The position numbers were made by a program, and so were the translations under genes. The notes under the pieces are model-generated. The model saw only the letters and a list, made by a program, of their open reading frames with translations. It searched no databases and was not told the DNA's origin. A DNA stretch of 42,899 nt from an uncultured bacterium (lineage in GTDB: Bacteria > Patescibacteriota > Minisyncoccia > Phycocordibacterales > UBA2100): assembly GCA_903854215.1 (NCBI GenBank), contig CAINVT010000008.1, forward strand, positions 1 to 42,899, given 5' to 3'. Shown in pieces: positions 2,970 through 42,172 of this stretch (position 1 is its first letter; each line of letters starts with the position of its first letter).

Positions 2970-3572
2970 ATGGATGAAACGGTAAAGAAAGATATACAAG
3001 ACAGGCTTGCACAGCTACCACAGGTAGTACGCGACGCGATCTCGTCAGCCGACACAACCACGCACCTTCGTGAACTGTCGAACTTGCACAAACTCCACCT
3101 TGATCAGTGGCAAGAGCTCGAAAACCAAGTAATGCTGACTCTCCTCGCCTTTAAAGAACTCGAGGGCCTACCACAAAACATCGAGAGTGAGGTCGGGGTA
3201 TCCCACGAAACCGCGGTGGCGCTTGCTGCAGACATCTCCCGCATTGTTTTCGAACCGATCCGCGAGGAGCTCGAACGGCAGCTCGAACACCCGGACGCGC
3301 AAGCAAAAGAAGAGACGGGTGTTGAAGCGATGACCGCACAGGTACTTTCAACTTCATCGACTTCAGATGAACAGAATGTTACGCCAATACTAAACGACAC
3401 ACCAACGCCAACGCCGCCACCTACACCTACTCCAATCTCACCACTCGTACCACCGCCGTCGGCACCGGAAACAAAAGCCGTCCGCGCACCGCTATCAGAT
3501 ACGTACAAAGTAGGGGAGACGAGCACCACACGTTCGGATGTTCATGATGATCCGTATCGGGAAACTCCATAG
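2970..3572 (+). CDS. hypothetical protein, helical N-terminus and Pro/Thr-rich C-terminus
   Basis: ORF in operon context; PTPTPPPTPTP tract. Confidence 0.6.
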   Translation: MDETVKKDIQDRLAQLPQVVRDAISSADTTTHLRELSNLHKLHLDQWQELENQVMLTLLAFKELEGLPQNIESEVGVSHETAVALAADISRIVFEPIREELERQLEHPDAQAKEETGVEAMTAQVLSTSSTSDEQNVTPILNDTPTPTPPPTPTPISPLVPPPSAPETKAVRAPLSDTYKVGETSTTRSDVHDDPYRETP

Positions 3573-3600
3573 GTTCTAGTGGCTAGGTTCTAGGTTTTAG
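3573..3600. repeat. family A heptad array, left arm: GTTCTAG TGGCTAG GTTCTAG GTTTTAG
   Basis: Four consecutive in-phase 7-mers read directly; starts at the base after the TAG stop of the upstream CDS. Confidence 0.85.
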
Positions 3601-3603
3601 GCT

Positions 3604-3975: not shown

Positions 3976-3990
3976 TGTTTGCATTGCATA

Positions 3991-4025
3991 CCTAGAAGCT
4001 AGCAACTAGTCCCTAGCAACTAACT
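3991..4025. repeat. family A heptad array, right arm: CCTAGAA GCTAGCA ACTAGTC CCTAGCA ACTAACT
   Basis: Five in-phase 7-mers, opposite orientation to 3573-3600, ending one base before the next ATG. Confidence 0.85.
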
Positions 4026-4026
4026 T

Positions 4027-4515
4027 ATGCAATTCCAAGTTCCACAGTTCATCGAAGTCGAAGACAAGATATTCGGCCCGCTCACATTCCGACAATTTAT
4101 CTATGTCGGCGGCGGGGCAGGACTTTCATATATCCTGTATCGCGTACTTCCGCTATTGATCGCGTTTCCGCTCATCGCAGGTATTCTCGGATTCGCGATC
4201 GCGCTCGCCTTTATGCAATTCAACGGCCGTCCGTTCATTCTCGCGGTAGAAAATGCATTTTTCTATATGCTGCATCCGCGTCTCTATCTGTGGAGCAATG
4301 AACGCAAGCCGGTTGCCCGACAGTTGCGAACGGCGACGCAGGGTACGAAGGGGCCAGACATATACATACCGAAGCTTTCCGAAAGCAAATTGCATGAGCT
4401 CGCCTGGAGTCTCGACATCAAAGAGCGTATCGCAGAAGGTTCCGCCGACAATGAGGATCGTGCGCAATATGATGCGATGAAACCGATCATGACGGCACGC
4501 GATGCACTTAAGTAA
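4027..4515 (+). CDS. PrgI family protein
   Basis: N-terminal QFQVPQFIEVEDKIFGPLTFRQF plus two TM segments, typical of PrgI. Confidence 0.85.
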   Translation: MQFQVPQFIEVEDKIFGPLTFRQFIYVGGGAGLSYILYRVLPLLIAFPLIAGILGFAIALAFMQFNGRPFILAVENAFFYMLHPRLYLWSNERKPVARQLRTATQGTKGPDIYIPKLSESKLHELAWSLDIKERIAEGSADNEDRAQYDAMKPIMTARDALK

Positions 4516-4550
4516 GTAACAAGGCACAAGTGGCAAATAACAAAGTAAAT
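4516..4550. repeat. family B heptad array, left arm: GTAACAA GGCACAA GTGGCAA ATAACAA AGTAAAT
   Basis: Five in-phase 7-mers starting at the base after the PrgI TAA. Confidence 0.8.
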
Positions 4551-4555
4551 TTCAC

Positions 4556-4939
4556 ATGGAAAATATGACTGGAAAAGATGCGGGGCGTCCGAATGATTTA
4601 CAAAATCGGACATTTCGTTTTGCTCGTGATGTTCGGCAATTTATAAGTGCACTACCGAGAAACTTGAGTACGGTGGCTGATGGGTCCCAGGTTATTCGAT
4701 CATCCGGTTCTGTTGGTGCAAATTATATTGAAGCACAAGAGGCATTGAGTAGAAAAGATTTTGCGATGCGAATAAAGATTTGTCGTAAAGAAGCAAAGGA
4801 GAGCAGTTACTGGTTAGAACTTCTCTCAGAACAAACACCAAAGGCAATTGCAACGGAACGCGAGCGCCTTGAACAGGAAGCTACCGCACTCTTGAGAATA
4901 TTTAGTGCGATGGTAAACAAATTGAATGTCTCAGCCTGA
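4556..4939 (+). CDS. four-helix-bundle protein (S23/IVP-like), second and divergent copy
   Basis: VIRSSGSVGANYIEAQEALSRKDFAMRIKICRKEAKESSYWLELL is typical of this family. Confidence 0.88.
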   Translation: MENMTGKDAGRPNDLQNRTFRFARDVRQFISALPRNLSTVADGSQVIRSSGSVGANYIEAQEALSRKDFAMRIKICRKEAKESSYWLELLSEQTPKAIATERERLEQEATALLRIFSAMVNKLNVSA

Positions 4940-4947
4940 TAACCTGT

Positions 4948-4982
4948 TTGCTACTTGTCACTTGATACTTGATACTTACGTG
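4948..4982. repeat. family B heptad array, right arm: TTGCTAC TTGTCAC TTGATAC TTGATAC TTACGTG
   Basis: Five in-phase 7-mers, inverted relative to 4516-4550. Confidence 0.85.
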
Positions 4983-4987
4983 AAGAT

Positions 4988-5653
4988 ATGCCCAACAAAA
5001 CAACCACCCGATCAGCTACCCGAACGACGCAGGAATTCGTGCCTGTTTCTTCGGTGCGCGACGGTGTCGTTGTGTTGAAAAGCGGTGATCTGCGCGCGAT
5101 CCTTCTCGCTTCATCGATCAACTTCGCGCTCAAATCAGACGATGAACAAACGGCATTCATCGTTCAATTCCAGAATTTTCTCAACTCACTCGACTTTTCA
5201 TGTCAGATATTCGTGCAGTCACGTATGCTCGACATCCGCCCGTATCTTGCGACGCTTGAGGTCCAGTACAAGGAACAGCTCGACGACCTCATGCGTGTAC
5301 AGATCCGCGAATACATTGAATTCATCAAGAGCTTCACTGAGGCGGCCAACATCATGACAAAGAATTTCTTCGTCATCGTCCCGTATTCTCCGACCGTTGC
5401 GGTGACCAGAAGCGGCGTGTCAAATTTTAATCCGTTCGGTAAGAAAAATCAGAGTGACGCAGATATCAACAAATCGTTCGAGGAACAGGTCTCGCAGCTC
5501 GAACAACGCATCTCGATCGTGCAGCAAGGACTTATCCGCACCGGCGTGCGCACCGTACAGCTCGGTACCGAAGAGGCGATCGAGCTTCTCTACAAGATGT
5601 TCAATCCGGGCGAGGAGGGTAAACCGATGCCACTGGAAGTAAGTGAAAAGTAA
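4988..5653 (+). CDS. TraC/VirB4 N-terminal-domain-like protein
   Basis: Conserved position before the VirB4-like ATPase; FVPVSSVRDGVVVLKSGDLRAIL... Confidence 0.7.
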   Translation: MPNKTTTRSATRTTQEFVPVSSVRDGVVVLKSGDLRAILLASSINFALKSDDEQTAFIVQFQNFLNSLDFSCQIFVQSRMLDIRPYLATLEVQYKEQLDDLMRVQIREYIEFIKSFTEAANIMTKNFFVIVPYSPTVAVTRSGVSNFNPFGKKNQSDADINKSFEEQVSQLEQRISIVQQGLIRTGVRTVQLGTEEAIELLYKMFNPGEEGKPMPLEVSEK

Positions 5654-5742
5654 CAAGTTTCAAGTAGCAATTATGAATACTTTCAATACTTATACTCCGC
5701 TGTTCGTTTGATATTTGTTACTTGATACTTGATACTTACTTC
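5636..5742. repeat. family B inverted heptad pair without an ORF between the arms
   Basis: Left: GAAGTAA GTGAAAA GTAACAA GTTTCAA GTAGCAA TTATGAA; right: TTGATAT TTGTTAC TTGATAC TTGATAC TTACTTC. Confidence 0.8.
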
Positions 5743-5746
5743 TACT

Positions 5747-7711
5747 ATGGCTCTCACCGATCTCTTAAACTTAAATTTCAGAAAAAGGTCCGACGAAGAA
5801 GGACCGAACATCCTGCCGGTCTTACCTGAAGAGATCTACCAGACCGGCGTCTTGGATCTGCAAGACGTCATCGCACCACATGCATTGAAGGTCAGCTCAC
5901 GCGAACTTGATCTCGGTGAGAAGATCGCGCGCACGTTCTTCGTCATCTCATATCCGCGCTTCCTAACGACCGGATGGTTCGCGCCGATCATCAATATGGA
6001 CAAGGTGCTCGATATCTCGATATTTATCCATCCGATGGATACTAACGAGATGCTCCGTAAATTCCAGAAGAAGGTCGCCGAGGTGCAAAGTCAGATCTCG
6101 ACACGAGAAGAGAAGGGAATGGTACGCGACCCAATGCTCGACACCGCATATTCCGATCTCGAGCAGCTGCGCGATAGCCTTCAACAAGCGCAGGAACGCA
6201 TTTTCGAAGTAGGGCTCTATCTCACGATCTACGGCAATTCTCGCGAAGATATCGACAAGATCGAGACCGAGATTCGCGGCATTCTCGAATCACGCCTCGT
6301 CTATATCCGACCGGCGCTCTTCCAACAAGAACAAGGTTTCCGCTCGGTGTTGCCGCTGTGCACCGATGAACTTGATGTGCATACCAAACTCAACTCCGCA
6401 CCGCTTTCCTCGATCTTTCCATTCATCTCATTCGACCTCACCTCAGATAGGGGTATTCTATACGGGATTAACCGCCACAATTCTTCACTCATCCTCTTCG
6501 ATCGATTCTCGCTCGAGAACTACAATTCGGTGACCTTCGCAAAGTCCGGAGCGGGCAAATCATACATGACGAAGCTCGAGATCTTGCGTAGTCTCATGTT
6601 CGACACCGAAGTCATCGTGATCGATCCGGAACGCGAATATGAATATCTGGCAGAGACCGTCGGCGGGCGTTATTTCAACATCTCGCTTTCTTCCGAGCAC
6701 CACATCAACCCGTTCGATCTTGCGATCCCGCGTGAGGATGAGAATCCGGCCGACGTGCTGCGCAACAACATCATCACACTCGTCGGACTTTTTCGCATCA
6801 TGCTCTCAGGTCTTACGCCGGAAGAAGACGCGATCATCGATCGCGCCATCACCGAGACGTATGCATTGAAAGACATCACCTCGGAAGCGAACTTCGCGCT
6901 GATCGAACCGCCGCTTCTTTCCGACTTCGAGCTCGTGCTCTCCGGCATGGAAGGATCAGAATCACTCGTGCAGCGATTGACCAAGTATACGAAGGGGACG
7001 TGGTCAGGCTTCATGAATCGTCCAACCAACGTCGACATGAACAAGAAGCTCGTCGTGTTCTCCGTGCGCGACATGGAAGACGATCTCAAGCCGGTCGCTA
7101 TGTATATCATTACGCACCATATCTGGAACCAGGTGCGCAAAGAGCTCCGCAAGCGCCTCTTGGTCATCGACGAAGCGTGGTGGATGATGCGTTCAGAAGA
7201 CACGGCGTCATTCCTCTTCGGGATCGCCAAGCGCGGACGTAAATACTATCTCGGCATCTCAACGATCACGCAAGACGTCTCCGACTTCTTGAACTCACCG
7301 TATGGCATCCCGATGATCACCAACTCATCGATCCAATTATTGTTGCGACAAAGTCCGACATCCGTCGACCTCGTGCAATCGACCTTCAAACTTTCCGATG
7401 AGGAAAAGTATCTCCTACTCGAATCCGATGTGGGGGAGGGAATATTCTTTGCCGGTCTCAAACACGTCGCCTTGAAAGTAATCGCAAGCTACACCGAAGA
7501 CCAGATCATCACATCCGACCCCTCGCAGATCCTTGCGATCAAGAAAGCAAAGCAGGACTTAGCAAATGTTTCCGAGGGCGGCCCCGAAGGTGCGGCGGCA
7601 TTGGCCGATCAAGCACCAGCAGGTGGCATCACGACCGAAGCGCACGCCCCCGGTACCGATACTGCCACGCAGGGCGCCACACTCACGAGCGGATCACTCA
7701 AAGAGGTATGA
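5747..7711 (+). CDS. VirB4/TraC-like conjugation ATPase
   Basis: Walker A-like AKSGAGKSYMTK, Walker B-like RLLVIDEAWWMM; ATG at 5747 after the repeat. Confidence 0.9.
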   Translation: MALTDLLNLNFRKRSDEEGPNILPVLPEEIYQTGVLDLQDVIAPHALKVSSRELDLGEKIARTFFVISYPRFLTTGWFAPIINMDKVLDISIFIHPMDTNEMLRKFQKKVAEVQSQISTREEKGMVRDPMLDTAYSDLEQLRDSLQQAQERIFEVGLYLTIYGNSREDIDKIETEIRGILESRLVYIRPALFQQEQGFRSVLPLCTDELDVHTKLNSAPLSSIFPFISFDLTSDRGILYGINRHNSSLILFDRFSLENYNSVTFAKSGAGKSYMTKLEILRSLMFDTEVIVIDPEREYEYLAETVGGRYFNISLSSEHHINPFDLAIPREDENPADVLRNNIITLVGLFRIMLSGLTPEEDAIIDRAITETYALKDITSEANFALIEPPLLSDFELVLSGMEGSESLVQRLTKYTKGTWSGFMNRPTNVDMNKKLVVFSVRDMEDDLKPVAMYIITHHIWNQVRKELRKRLLVIDEAWWMMRSEDTASFLFGIAKRGRKYYLGISTITQDVSDFLNSPYGIPMITNSSIQLLLRQSPTSVDLVQSTFKLSDEEKYLLLESDVGEGIFFAGLKHVALKVIASYTEDQIITSDPSQILAIKKAKQDLANVSEGGPEGAAALADQAPAGGITTEAHAPGTDTATQGATLTSGSLKEV

Positions 7712-10972: not shown

Positions 10973-11084
10973 CTTTCTGCTTCCAGCGGTCGGATAGCTT
11001 TCGGGTTTCAGCTGTCAGCTTTCAGAGAAAATACGCTCCAAAATCCGTGCTGAAAGCTGAAACCTGACAGCTGAAAGCTACTTC
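10973..11084. repeat. family C inverted heptad pair between jag and yidC
   Basis: Left: CTTTCTG CTTCCAG CGGTCGG atag CTTTCGG GTTTCAG CTGTCAG CTTTCAG; right: CTGAAAG CTGAAAC CTGACAG CTGAAAG CTACTTC. Confidence 0.8.
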
Positions 11085-31055: not shown

Positions 31056-33450
31056 GAAGAACAACAACAAGAAACACCTCGTTCTGCTCGATTCGCATGC
31101 GATCCTGCACCGTGCGTATCATGCGTTGCCGGATTTTTCTTCAAGCAAAGGCGAACCGACTGGCGCACTCTATGGACTGATCACGATGCTCCTGCATATC
31201 GTTGCCGACCTCAAGCCTGATTATGTTGTTGCAACGCGCGATTTGCCCGGTGGTACGCATCGACATCAATTGTTCGAAGCTTACAAAGGCACACGCGTGA
31301 AAGCCGAGGACGAACTCGTGGCACAGCTCAGGCGCGCACCGGATGTTTTCGAAGCGTTCGGTATTCCGATGTATCAAGCGCCGGGATACGAGGCTGATGA
31401 TTGTCTCGGAACGATCGTGCATGAATTAAAAAGTCGCGACGACATCGAGACGACGATCGCATCGGGTGATATGGATACCTTGCAGCTCGTTTCACCGTCG
31501 GTCTCTGTCTATACCATGCGAAAAGGTTTGAATGATACGGTTTTGTACAACGGAGATCGTGTGCGTGAGCGATATGGTTTTGGACCGGAGAGTGTCGTGG
31601 ATTACAAAGCGTTGCGCGGTGATCCGTCCGACAATATTCCCGGGGTCAAAGGTATCGGAGAAAAAACAGCGACGGAGCTTCTCCAACAATTCGGTACGCT
31701 CGAAAATCTCTACATCGCACTCGATTCGGAACCTGAATCACTAAAAAATGCAGGTATCAAGCCGCGCATCATTGAGCTCCTCAAAGAACATCGTGCCGAT
31801 GCACAGATGTCGAAAGTATTAGCGACGATCAGTACGGATGCGCCGATCGAGTTCGTGGTGCCGGAGCGACCGTGGCATCTCGCAGATCACCTCGAAACGA
31901 TTTACAAATTGTGTGATGAGCTCGAATTCAAATCACTGAAAGAGCGAATCAGAATGGCTGCAGAAGGAGCACAAAAATCAGTAGCATCTGAAATCACTGA
32001 CGAACGAGCCGCATCACCTATGCCGGAAGTTGATGAAGAAATGCTTTCGGAGACAGCGGTCGCGCTATGGCTTTTACATTCGGATACGACGAATCCAAGT
32101 TTGGAAGATATACTCACTGCACGTAACACCGAAGACTTCGAGGGCGCGCGCGCCGGTATCTTCAAAGACCTGAAAGATACGGGGCGGCTTGCTGAGGTGT
32201 ACGACGAGATCGAGAAACCACTGATTCCTGTTGTTCGACGAATGAATGAGACTGGCGTGCACGTTGATGCGAGTGCTCTCAAAGCTCTTGCAAAAGAATA
32301 CAGCACCGAGCTCGGCGTGATCGCGGGGCGGATATTTGCTGCGGCGGGACATGAGTTCAATATCAATTCACCCAAGCAGCTCGCCGTCGTTTTGTATGAC
32401 GAGCTCAAGATCGTACCGGAGAAACAGAAGAAGACAGCGACCGGCGCGCGCACGACGCGTGAGGATGAGCTTGCCAAACTCGCGCCACTGCACCCGATCG
32501 TCGGGGACATTCTTGCGTACCGTGAATTACAGAAATTACTTTCGACCTACATTGAAAAGATACCGACCTTGATAGCGCAAGACGGTCGCTTGCATGCGAA
32601 ATTCCTTCAGGCGGGGACAACGACCGGACGCATGGCGAGTGAGGCACCCAATCTCCAAAACATTCCCATCAAGACCGATTATGGACGGCGTATTCGTACG
32701 GCATTCGCAGCAGAAGAGGGGAATACGATCGTCGCGATTGATTATTCACAGATCGAACTGCGTATCGCAGCCGGACTTTCGGGTGATGAAAAGTTGTTAC
32801 GCGTATTCAAAGAGGGGGGCGATGTGCATACGGCGGTCGCATCGGAAGTCTTCGGTGTGACACCGAACAAAGTCGATCGTGAAATGCGTCGGCGAGCGAA
32901 GGTCATCAACTTCGGCATTCTCTATGGGATGGGCGTGAATGCGTTGCGTGCGAATCTTGGGGTGGGCGTTTCGCGCGATGAATCGGCGCAATATCTGTCG
33001 GATTATTTCAAGAACTTCTCCGGATTGCGGGAATGGATCGACAAGACGAAATTCGAAGCGGCACAAAACGGCTATACGGAGACCTTGTTCGGACGTCGCC
33101 GCTATTTTCCAGGATTCAAATCATCGCTGCCGGGGATCGTCGCACAAGCAGAACGCATGGCGGTCAACGCGCCGATACAGGGTACACAAGCCGACATTAT
33201 CAAGCGAGCGATGGTTGCTGCCGATGCGCTCATCGAGAAGAATCAGTGGCGGGAAAAAGTTCGCCTCGTTTTGCAAGTGCATGATGAATTGGTATACGAG
33301 ATTATGGAGAATGGTGCTGAAGATACCGCACGTTTGTTGCGCGATGTGATGGAGAGTGCCGCGCCGACTGAACGATTATCAGATGTTCCTATTCTGGCCG
33401 AAGTATCAGTCGGACATAATTGGGGAGAGATGAAGAAGATTAGTCGCTAG
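31048..33450 (+). CDS. polA: DNA polymerase I
   Basis: 5' nuclease N-terminus (LLDSHAILHRAYHAL); polymerase AIDYSQIELRIAAGLSGD, RRRAKVINFGILYGMG, QVHDELVYE. Confidence 0.95.
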   Translation: MVKKNNNKKHLVLLDSHAILHRAYHALPDFSSSKGEPTGALYGLITMLLHIVADLKPDYVVATRDLPGGTHRHQLFEAYKGTRVKAEDELVAQLRRAPDVFEAFGIPMYQAPGYEADDCLGTIVHELKSRDDIETTIASGDMDTLQLVSPSVSVYTMRKGLNDTVLYNGDRVRERYGFGPESVVDYKALRGDPSDNIPGVKGIGEKTATELLQQFGTLENLYIALDSEPESLKNAGIKPRIIELLKEHRADAQMSKVLATISTDAPIEFVVPERPWHLADHLETIYKLCDELEFKSLKERIRMAAEGAQKSVASEITDERAASPMPEVDEEMLSETAVALWLLHSDTTNPSLEDILTARNTEDFEGARAGIFKDLKDTGRLAEVYDEIEKPLIPVVRRMNETGVHVDASALKALAKEYSTELGVIAGRIFAAAGHEFNINSPKQLAVVLYDELKIVPEKQKKTATGARTTREDELAKLAPLHPIVGDILAYRELQKLLSTYIEKIPTLIAQDGRLHAKFLQAGTTTGRMASEAPNLQNIPIKTDYGRRIRTAFAAEEGNTIVAIDYSQIELRIAAGLSGDEKLLRVFKEGGDVHTAVASEVFGVTPNKVDREMRRRAKVINFGILYGMGVNALRANLGVGVSRDESAQYLSDYFKNFSGLREWIDKTKFEAAQNGYTETLFGRRRYFPGFKSSLPGIVAQAERMAVNAPIQGTQADIIKRAMVAADALIEKNQWREKVRLVLQVHDELVYEIMENGAEDTARLLRDVMESAAPTERLSDVPILAEVSVGHNWGEMKKISR

Positions 33451-33529
33451 GGACTAGGTGCTAGTTTCTAGTAGAATACTTTATATGATCGTCGACCGCC
33501 TAGAACCTAGAACCTAGAACCTAACACCT
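33437..33529. repeat. family A inverted heptad pair between polA and holA
   Basis: Left: AGATTAG TCGCTAG GGACTAG GTGCTAG TTTCTAG; right: CCTAGAA CCTAGAA CCTAGAA CCTAACA CCT|ATG. Confidence 0.85.
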
Positions 33530-34174
33530 ATGCTCTACCTCTACACCGGAACCGATAGAACGAAAGCGCGCACTGCCATGCAAGCCGCAGTTGCGCACGC
33601 ACAAAAGGGTGGCGTATCTATCACGCGTATCAATGATGCAAATACACTCGACGATCTCGCGGCGGCCTTGCACTCGGGCGGCATGTTCGCGACCGAACGC
33701 ATCGTTGTCCTGGAAAATGTTTTTGAGAACGATGAGATGCGGGAAGTTCTGCGCGCAGAACTTCCCACGCTCAAATCATCAACTGATCACTTTTTTCTCT
33801 ACGAGGAGAAACCGGATGCTGCGACGAGGAAATTGATCGAGAAATATGCGGAAAAATCCGAGCGATACGATGCGGCAAAAAAAGCCGATGGGGGAACGAC
33901 TATATTTGCACTTGCGAACGCACTGCGGGCAGGAAATAAGAAGGCGTTGTGGGTCGGATATCAACGCGAACTTTTGAACGATGCCGCGCCGGAGGCGATT
34001 CATGGTGTCCTATTTTGGGCAGCAAAGGATATGCTGCTCAAATCATCGGCTGTGGTGGACAAAACACGAGCAAAGAAACTCATTGCAAGTCTCACTGAGC
34101 TGCCGCATGAGGCACGGCGACGCGGCGAAGACCTCGAATATGCACTTGAGCGGTTTGTGCTCGGAAAATTGTGA
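33530..34174 (+). CDS. holA: DNA polymerase III delta subunit-like protein
   Basis: LYLYTGTDRTKARTAMQ...; position after polA; moderate resemblance to HolA N-terminal domain. Confidence 0.65.
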   Translation: MLYLYTGTDRTKARTAMQAAVAHAQKGGVSITRINDANTLDDLAAALHSGGMFATERIVVLENVFENDEMREVLRAELPTLKSSTDHFFLYEEKPDAATRKLIEKYAEKSERYDAAKKADGGTTIFALANALRAGNKKALWVGYQRELLNDAAPEAIHGVLFWAAKDMLLKSSAVVDKTRAKKLIASLTELPHEARRRGEDLEYALERFVLGKL

Positions 34175-38915: not shown

Positions 38916-39317
38916 TTACAAGGGAAAATCGAGGCCAAGGGGGCCGGCTCCGGAGATGAGAAGCGCAAGGCACATAAGGAAAAGCAGTGCATACGTACTG
39001 CGTGGCAACGGCCGCAGTGATTCGTACTGTTTCGACAGCGACATGTGTTTGATGACAATGATAATGCCGATAATAGCGGCGGCTTGCGTGCCATACCCCA
39101 CCAGTATCGCGAGGCCGTCGAAGATGGTTATGACTCCGGAGATCCACAGCATCCACGATGCAGGACTGCCGAGAATCGGTAGGCGGATCTTCGTCAGATC
39201 ATTGCGGCGTACGATCAAGAAATAACCGGCATAGATGAACGAGATCCCGACGCCGATGCGTAGGATCGTAGCGGTAAACGGTGCGAGCCAAAGAATTTGT
39301 GGAATGAGTGAAAGCAT
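38916..39317 (-). CDS. DoxX-like small membrane protein
   Basis: ILRIGVGISFIYAGYFLI...SGVITIFDGLAILVGYGTQAAAIIGIIIVI. Confidence 0.65.
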   Translation of the reverse strand: MLSLIPQILWLAPFTATILRIGVGISFIYAGYFLIVRRNDLTKIRLPILGSPASWMLWISGVITIFDGLAILVGYGTQAAAIIGIIIVIKHMSLSKQYESLRPLPRSTYALLFLMCLALLISGAGPLGLDFPL

Positions 39318-39320
39318 ACG

Positions 39321-39355
39321 AACTAGGTTGTAGCTTCTAGCTTATAGGTTTTAGG
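39321..39355. repeat. family A heptad array, single arm: AACTAGG TTGTAGC TTCTAGC TTATAGG TTTTAGG
   Basis: Five in-phase 7-mers; no convincing inverted partner nearby. Confidence 0.8.
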
Positions 39356-42077: not shown

Positions 42078-42172
42078 GAGTAAGTATCAGGCATCAGGCA
42101 CCAAGTATCAAGGAAGCTGATTGCTCCGCGCCGTTTTTGCTACGTGGGGTTTTGAAACTTGATACTTTCGCT
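42078..42172. repeat. family B inverted heptad pair upstream of ruvA (right arm short)
   Basis: Left: GAGTAAG TATCAGG CATCAGG CACCAAG TATCAAG; right: TTGAAAC TTGATAC TTTCGCT. Confidence 0.7.

Follow-up and report, generated by a model that had tools for sequence, protein, structure and literature searches.

The S23 or IVP proteins (PF05635) form a family whose function has been unknown for decades. Avd, to which they are homologous, is the pentameric, nucleic acid-binding partner of diversity-generating retroelements (DGRs), and RNA binding by its relatives is known from the DGR complex (8UB7). The S23 protein of Xanthomonas was described as a homopentamer, and three tandem heptamers (GACAGAT) precede the S23 ORF in the Coxiella IVS (PMC4990558). 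Intergenic heptads have been described on their own account. In Geobacter metallireducens, paired heptanucleotide sites of class 3 (consensus MTYCTGA) and of the GGACCGG family were ascribed to an unidentified regulator or to IHF/HU (PMC2700814), and the TAACTGA heptamers of Beggiatoaceae, Cyanobacteria, and Bacteroidetes were suggested to be bound by a post-transcriptional regulator still to be named (PMC4679880). Among open-access papers, no link between S23 proteins and intergenic heptad arrays was found, and an earlier description may exist elsewhere. The element described here is real and widespread. It occupies operon junctions in co-directional orientation, varies in its presence among sister species, and carries a repeat word that is tied to the clade of its S23 protein.

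The locus under study, element B, lies between the PrgI gene and the gene for a 221-aa protein in a T4SS-like operon, i.e., outside rRNA, in the window (the whole 42.9-kb stretch of DNA that was analyzed). The stop codon of PrgI (TAA) is at 4513-4515, and the upstream arm starts in this region, continuing with the heptads GTAACAA (4516-4522), GGCACAA (4523-4529), GTGGCAA (4530-4536), and ATAACAA (4537-4543). The downstream arm holds TTGCTAC (4948-4954), TTGTCAC (4955-4961), and two copies of TTGATAC (4962-4968 and 4969-4975), and positions 4948-4977 were detected as a period-7 array with a score of 15. Together the arms form a 33-nt inverted repeat that is 79% complementary. The words and coordinates of the preliminary description were recovered on re-reading the sequence. 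The last units quoted, AGTAAAT and TTACGTG, depart from the repeat pattern, and the true arms are longer than had been stated. An Rfam scan of the window returned two tRNAs only, with no known RNA family in the region of the element.

The description of ORF 4556-4939 as an S23-like four-helix bundle was upheld by several lines of data. Its match to PF05635 (23S_rRNA_IVP) reached 46.9 bits (3.5e-12; Pfam curated cut-off, 33.8 bits), and the AlphaFold monomer was predicted to have four helices with a mean pLDDT of 92. The nearest solved folds in Foldseek were 2RLD and 2GSC, both of the S23 family, followed by Avd (4DWL and 8UB7). The profile match to 2RLD was 1.5e-24, and 2RLD lists five chains. 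That the adjacent gaps hold two different S23-like subfamilies was also borne out, as the genes of elements A and B were placed in deeply separated clades of the protein tree (clades A and B; support, 100/99).

Table 1. Heptad elements of the window and genes of the host operon
Feature	Position	Strand	Evidence or remarks
Upstream arm of element A	3570-3601	+	CTAGNNN heptads; ORF 2970-3572 uses the first TAG (3570-3572) as its stop codon
S23/IVP gene, clade A, 123 aa	3604-3975	+	PF05635, 133.5 bits, 4.1e-39
Downstream inverted arm of element A	3990-4016	+	Inverted repeat of 26 nt, 85%
PrgI-family gene of T4SS-like host operon	4027-4515	+	PF12666; in 48/52 genus genomes
Upstream arm of element B	4512-4544	+	GTAACAA GGCACAA GTGGCAA ATAACAA; consensus CAAGTNN; overlaps PrgI stop codon
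S23/IVP four-helix-bundle gene, clade B, 127 aa	4556-4939	+	PF05635, clade placement, AlphaFold, Foldseek
Downstream inverted arm of element B	4947-4979	+	TTGCTAC TTGTCAC TTGATAC TTGATAC TTAC
Gene-less mini-element, B words, gap between 221-aa gene and VirB4/TraG-like gene	5636-5742	+	35-nt inverted repeat; short ORF begins in loop
VirB4/TraG-like ATPase gene of host operon	5729-7711	+	PF19044, PF12846
Gene-less heptad inverted repeat, CAGCTNT words	10996-11080	-	Fold z=-4.4
Gene-less heptad inverted repeat, CTAGNNN words like element A, short loop ORF	33441-33531	+	Fold z=-2.3
Gene-less heptad inverted repeat, CAAGTNN words like element B	42083-42170	-	Fold z=-1.9

Thirty congeners were compared at three gaps of the PrgI operon. 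The gaps were empty, held an S23 gene, or held a gene-less mini-element (mini), which fills the distance from the stop codon of one cistron to the start codon of the next. For the same gap, both the presence of an element and its word vocabulary differed between sister species. In congeners G009 (L172/L082) and G332 (L166), the gap from the 221-aa gene to the VirB4 gene, which in the window has only a gene-less B hairpin, contains an S23 gene of clade B. Short inverted-repeat copies and presence or absence at orthologous sites, both characteristic of MITEs, were thus observed. Empty and filled sites compared by eye displayed no clear target-site duplication, and no integrase or transposase gene was found within the element. 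Where the gap upstream of PrgI has no element (e.g., L163, L173, L179, and L180), a TATAAT-like box of a leaderless-type promoter was seen ~6 nt before the start codon, and this box is missing where an S23 element fills the gap.

The window contained ten period-7 arrays, whereas dinucleotide shuffles of it averaged 0.05. The four gene-less hairpins of Table 1 were absent from the preliminary description, and the one closest to element B gave an RNA fold of -30.7 kcal/mol (z=-5.8). A lone CTAG-type heptad arm with no readable inverted partner was also present at 39316-39355. In ~0.91 Mb of the source genome, 107 period-7 arrays were detected versus 13 in shuffles, and they formed ~34 gene-less inverted repeats. 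Between 14 and 16 of these minis share CTAG words with the A gene of the window and its orthologues, and three share the words of window B and of L087, a relative of it, while the other clade-B loci of the genus match at most one mini each. For ~12 further minis with TAGTTGN/CAGTTNT words (~8 copies) or CAGCTNT words (~4), no S23 gene with the same words was found in the assembly.

The agreement between minis and S23 genes was also apparent in the congeners. The words of 16 PrgI-operon minis, all from genomes with S23 loci available for comparison, scored 0.864 against the S23 words of their own genome and 0.789 against those of other congeners (P=0.0005); the minis of G006, G003, and G334 S2 had words unlike the S23 loci examined from their own genomes. 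Several features of individual minis were recorded. The loop often opens with an AAAATAC-like sequence in L161, L170, L175, L178, L182, L183, and the window hairpins at 5636-5742 and 33441-33531, and the same minis often have a short loop ORF running from an ATG to a stop codon inside the 3' arm. This short ORF was considered as a defining part of the gene-less elements and rejected, being found in many PrgI-operon minis but missing in other minis whose loops are short. A cluster of three related gene-less CAGTTNT hairpins, spaced ~700 nt apart, lies within 1.5 kb at 12339-13818 of L312 (G000:C14), with no matching S23 gene in that genome. A long pure array of ~8 CTAGCCA copies plus TAGGTTC units occupies 5813-5889 of L369 (G000:C71), near the contig end, which suggests that the assembly breaks at such arrays.

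Genes matching PF05635 were found in 151 of the 297 genomes of the order. A period-7 array (p<0.01) was present in at least one flank of 115 of the 158 order-wide loci (upstream in 77, downstream in 86, and in both flanks in 48), and the remaining 43 had no significant array. No other period from 3 to 13 approached these counts, and other periods gave ~10 loci at most, save 14, which is the double of 7. A clade-B profile led to 80 loci in Planctomycetota, Bacteroidota, Deltaproteobacteria, Omnitrophota, Chloroflexi, Verrucomicrobia, and Patescibacteria. Arrays were present at 87 of 101 further loci, mostly of clade B and many from other phyla, this set being the product of the cross-phylum clade-B profile search and the order-wide clade-B search. 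The S23 gene was co-directional with both neighbors at 142 loci of the order and opposed to both at 6, with corresponding counts of 61 and 0 elsewhere; expression is therefore probably by read-through of the host operon.

Where both arms were readable, their word agreement was 0.91 within a locus versus 0.72 between different loci, and the order of units was mirrored between arms slightly above chance (P=9e-5). Readable arrays had a median of ~4.9 units, a figure that carries a bias from the detection threshold. Within each heptad, two or three core letters are kept while the remaining letters and the number of units vary, and the core positions were steadier than the rest (sd of 0.077 and 0.074 versus null maxima of 0.039 and 0.034). 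Tandem repeats can in general arise by slippage, but slippage alone would not give such steady core letters. Moreover, only period 7 was enriched, the arms are inverted with the same words in both, and the word is tied to the protein clade. Chance or generic slippage beside a gene is already refuted by these tests of period, arm, and clade, and we assign it practically no probability. A separate observation concerned an Avd-like four-helix-bundle gene of the source genome (L005; G000:C17:13416-13715), which lies near a reverse transcriptase gene (C17:14315-14998) in what is probably a DGR. Its flanks have no heptad arrays, and the arrays are therefore not general to the four-helix-bundle fold.

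The preliminary description had proposed a match between protein subfamily and repeat vocabulary, which a lack of correlation between protein clade and flanking-word family in a larger sample would have contradicted. The correlation was present, and it reached beyond Patescibacteria. Over 182 loci, the distances between proteins and between words were correlated with a Mantel r of 0.478 (P=0.002, the lowest value attainable with 500 permutations), which was 0.475 once pairs whose flanking DNA or proteins were homologous had been removed and was left unchanged by GC. Within clade B and between phyla, r was 0.33 (P=0.0005; 0.30 as a partial correlation for GC). Clade-A words contain AG (TAG or CAG) and clade-B words AA (AAATCCG, TAAATTC, CAAATTC, and AATTTNN), with AG/AA counts of 69/7 in clade A versus 4/82 in clade B when the split was placed at the branch with the best word agreement. 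Repeating the count on clades drawn from the tree blind to words gave 66/8 versus 1/15 (P=1.5e-10). In the genus alone, 30 AG and 1 AA were counted versus 1 AG and 11 AA, and 10 changes between AG and AA were required on the protein tree versus 54 after shuffling. Out of sample, the clade-A loci from other phyla comprised 11 AG and 1 AA, with 3 unclassed and 14 having no usable array. The mechanical AG/AA label misclasses the window B word, CAAGTNN, which holds both AA and AG, and the phase-free Mantel test is independent of this label. The closest protein relatives of window B use AAGTAC/CAAGTAN words, and CAAGTNN is also used at clade-B loci of Verrucomicrobia.

Covariation alone is no proof of recognition, because protein and arms are inherited as one unit, and part of the correlation comes from this co-inheritance. 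It was considered whether linked inheritance could account for the whole pattern, the gene and arms being a single mobile or vertically inherited unit whose words go unread by its protein. Gene and arms are indeed physically linked, common descent gives a clade-level correlation of this kind, and some genomes have heptads with no matching S23 gene. We nevertheless deem this unlikely, as the same two or three core letters stay while unit number and variable letters change, the word class is kept across phyla in non-homologous contexts, and unlinked minis match the S23 words of their own genome, although such minis may descend from full elements. From these patterns we infer that the S23 protein probably recognizes its own heptad words. 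The steady core letters argue for such recognition, and the gene-less arrays matching in trans agree with it, though descent could also produce them.

The element might alternatively act at the RNA level, as an IVS or regulator. Either the arms would pair in the transcript, as in 23S rRNA, and an RNase III cut would separate the cistrons, or an S23 ring bound to the heptads near the start codons would control translation. The strong co-orientation with host operons, the span of the minis from stop to start codon, hairpin folding with z down to -5.8, and the RNA binding of Avd relatives (8UB7) are consistent with this, as are the protein family and inverted-repeat anatomy, which are those of the RNase III-cut rRNA IVSs, including the heptameric repeats of the Coxiella IVS (PMC4990558). 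If the RNA stem were the selected feature, G-U pairs would be expected in excess among the arm mismatches of the sense strand, and no such excess was seen (472 sense versus 478 antisense). The RNA stem was rejected as the selected feature on this test, and the earlier suggestion that the protein recognizes its own stem was not supported by it. Furthermore, the operon minis paired better on the antisense strand (31 versus 12; the sense strand was better in 4 of 19), and presence and word vary at the same site between sister species, unlike a conserved regulon. The RNA-level reading is accordingly rated as unlikely. Given that there is no G-U bias and that the antisense strand of the operon minis folds better, word recognition is therefore favored over conservation of an RNA stem.

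A Y1 (IS200/REP-associated) transposase or a reverse transcriptase of the host could also act in trans to mobilize the heptad hairpins, with S23 as a passenger or accessory. Y1 transposases are found in 45 of 52 genus genomes, and the homology of S23 to a DGR accessory protein, Avd, fits such a role. Reverse transcriptase, however, was found in only 18 of the 52, three Y1-bearing contigs of the source genome that were inspected (L376, L327, and L366) had no gene-less hairpin among those listed, and the word follows the S23 clade. Mobilization of this kind is regarded as very unlikely, and on the first two of these counts both enzymes were rejected as obligate partners.

In our preferred reading, the B gene belongs to a small repeated element, of which it marks the copy that bears a gene. 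The layout comprises the stop codon of the upstream cistron, three to five tandem heptads, an S23 gene or a short loop, the same heptads in inverted orientation, and the start codon of the next cistron, and the element is probably expressed by read-through of host operons. By analogy with solved S23 and Avd relatives, the S23 protein is presumed to form a pentameric ring, in which each subunit may take one heptad unit. In nucleic acid, the ring would bind the heptads that belong to its family one word at a time, both in cis, on the element that encodes it, and in trans, on the gene-less copies, and this binding would maintain or help spread a selfish IVS-like or MITE-like family. Because we know of no catalytic site in the S23 protein, and because reverse transcriptase was undetected in most of the genus, any movement would need other enzymes, presumably supplied by the host from outside the element. 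That the elements are an IVS-like or MITE-like family whose own words are bound in cis and in trans by a putative S23 pentamer, which would maintain the family or help it spread, is given about an even chance.

More tentatively, and with a probability short of even, the S23/IVP proteins may be a large class of putative pentameric readers of 7-nt words, with clade-specific cores, one unit per subunit, and several mutually blind S23/word pairs per genome acting in trans on dozens of gene-less arrays at operon junctions. If this is true, the orphan heptad arrays described from 2009 onward in Geobacter, Beggiatoaceae, and other groups would be accounted for. Both the S23/IVP proteins and the intergenic heptad arrays have long been orphans. 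They are now tied across many phyla, and with each protein clade given a word, both are open to a simple binding experiment. Should the protein indeed read the words, a function could be assigned to many proteins annotated as "four helix bundle proteins", and a partner protein to a large set of small intergenic elements.

Compared to the known systems, the S23 genes of the window share the fold of Avd (4DWL and 8UB7) and differ in having no adjacent reverse transcriptase, the single reverse transcriptase of the source genome being on contig C17 and not on C8. The Geobacter sites, likened here by their published description, likewise consist of five tandem 7-nt units in opposite-strand, intergenic pairs (PMC2700814), while no link to S23 was reported for them. 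The TAACTGA repeats are also intergenic 7-nt direct repeats near start codons (PMC4679880) but are mostly direct arrays with no inverted partner. A direct link of TAACTGA arrays to an adjacent S23 gene was rejected, since no S23 gene was found within ~1.5 kb at any of nine places in Bacteroidota. Two of six TAACTGA genomes have S23 loci with related words, namely, CAGTTTA/CAGTATT at L469 (G497) and GCTGGAT, matching a neighboring gene-less array, at L466 (G651); this tie is only suggestive. The REP/RAYT and MITE families resemble the present family in combining one gene-bearing form with many short, palindromic, gene-less intergenic copies (PMC2817692). They differ in that S23 is no tyrosine transposase, the arms of the window element are heptad arrays, and its movement is putative. 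There is also a likeness in anatomy to the rRNA IVSs, such as those of Coxiella burnetii and Leptospira, which have a PF05635 protein, inverted repeats at both ends, a length of ~0.45 kb, and a sense-oriented ORF. Element B likewise has inverted repeats around an S23 ORF, but whereas the IVSs are located in rRNA genes, it is located between the protein genes of an operon and is accompanied by numerous gene-less copies.
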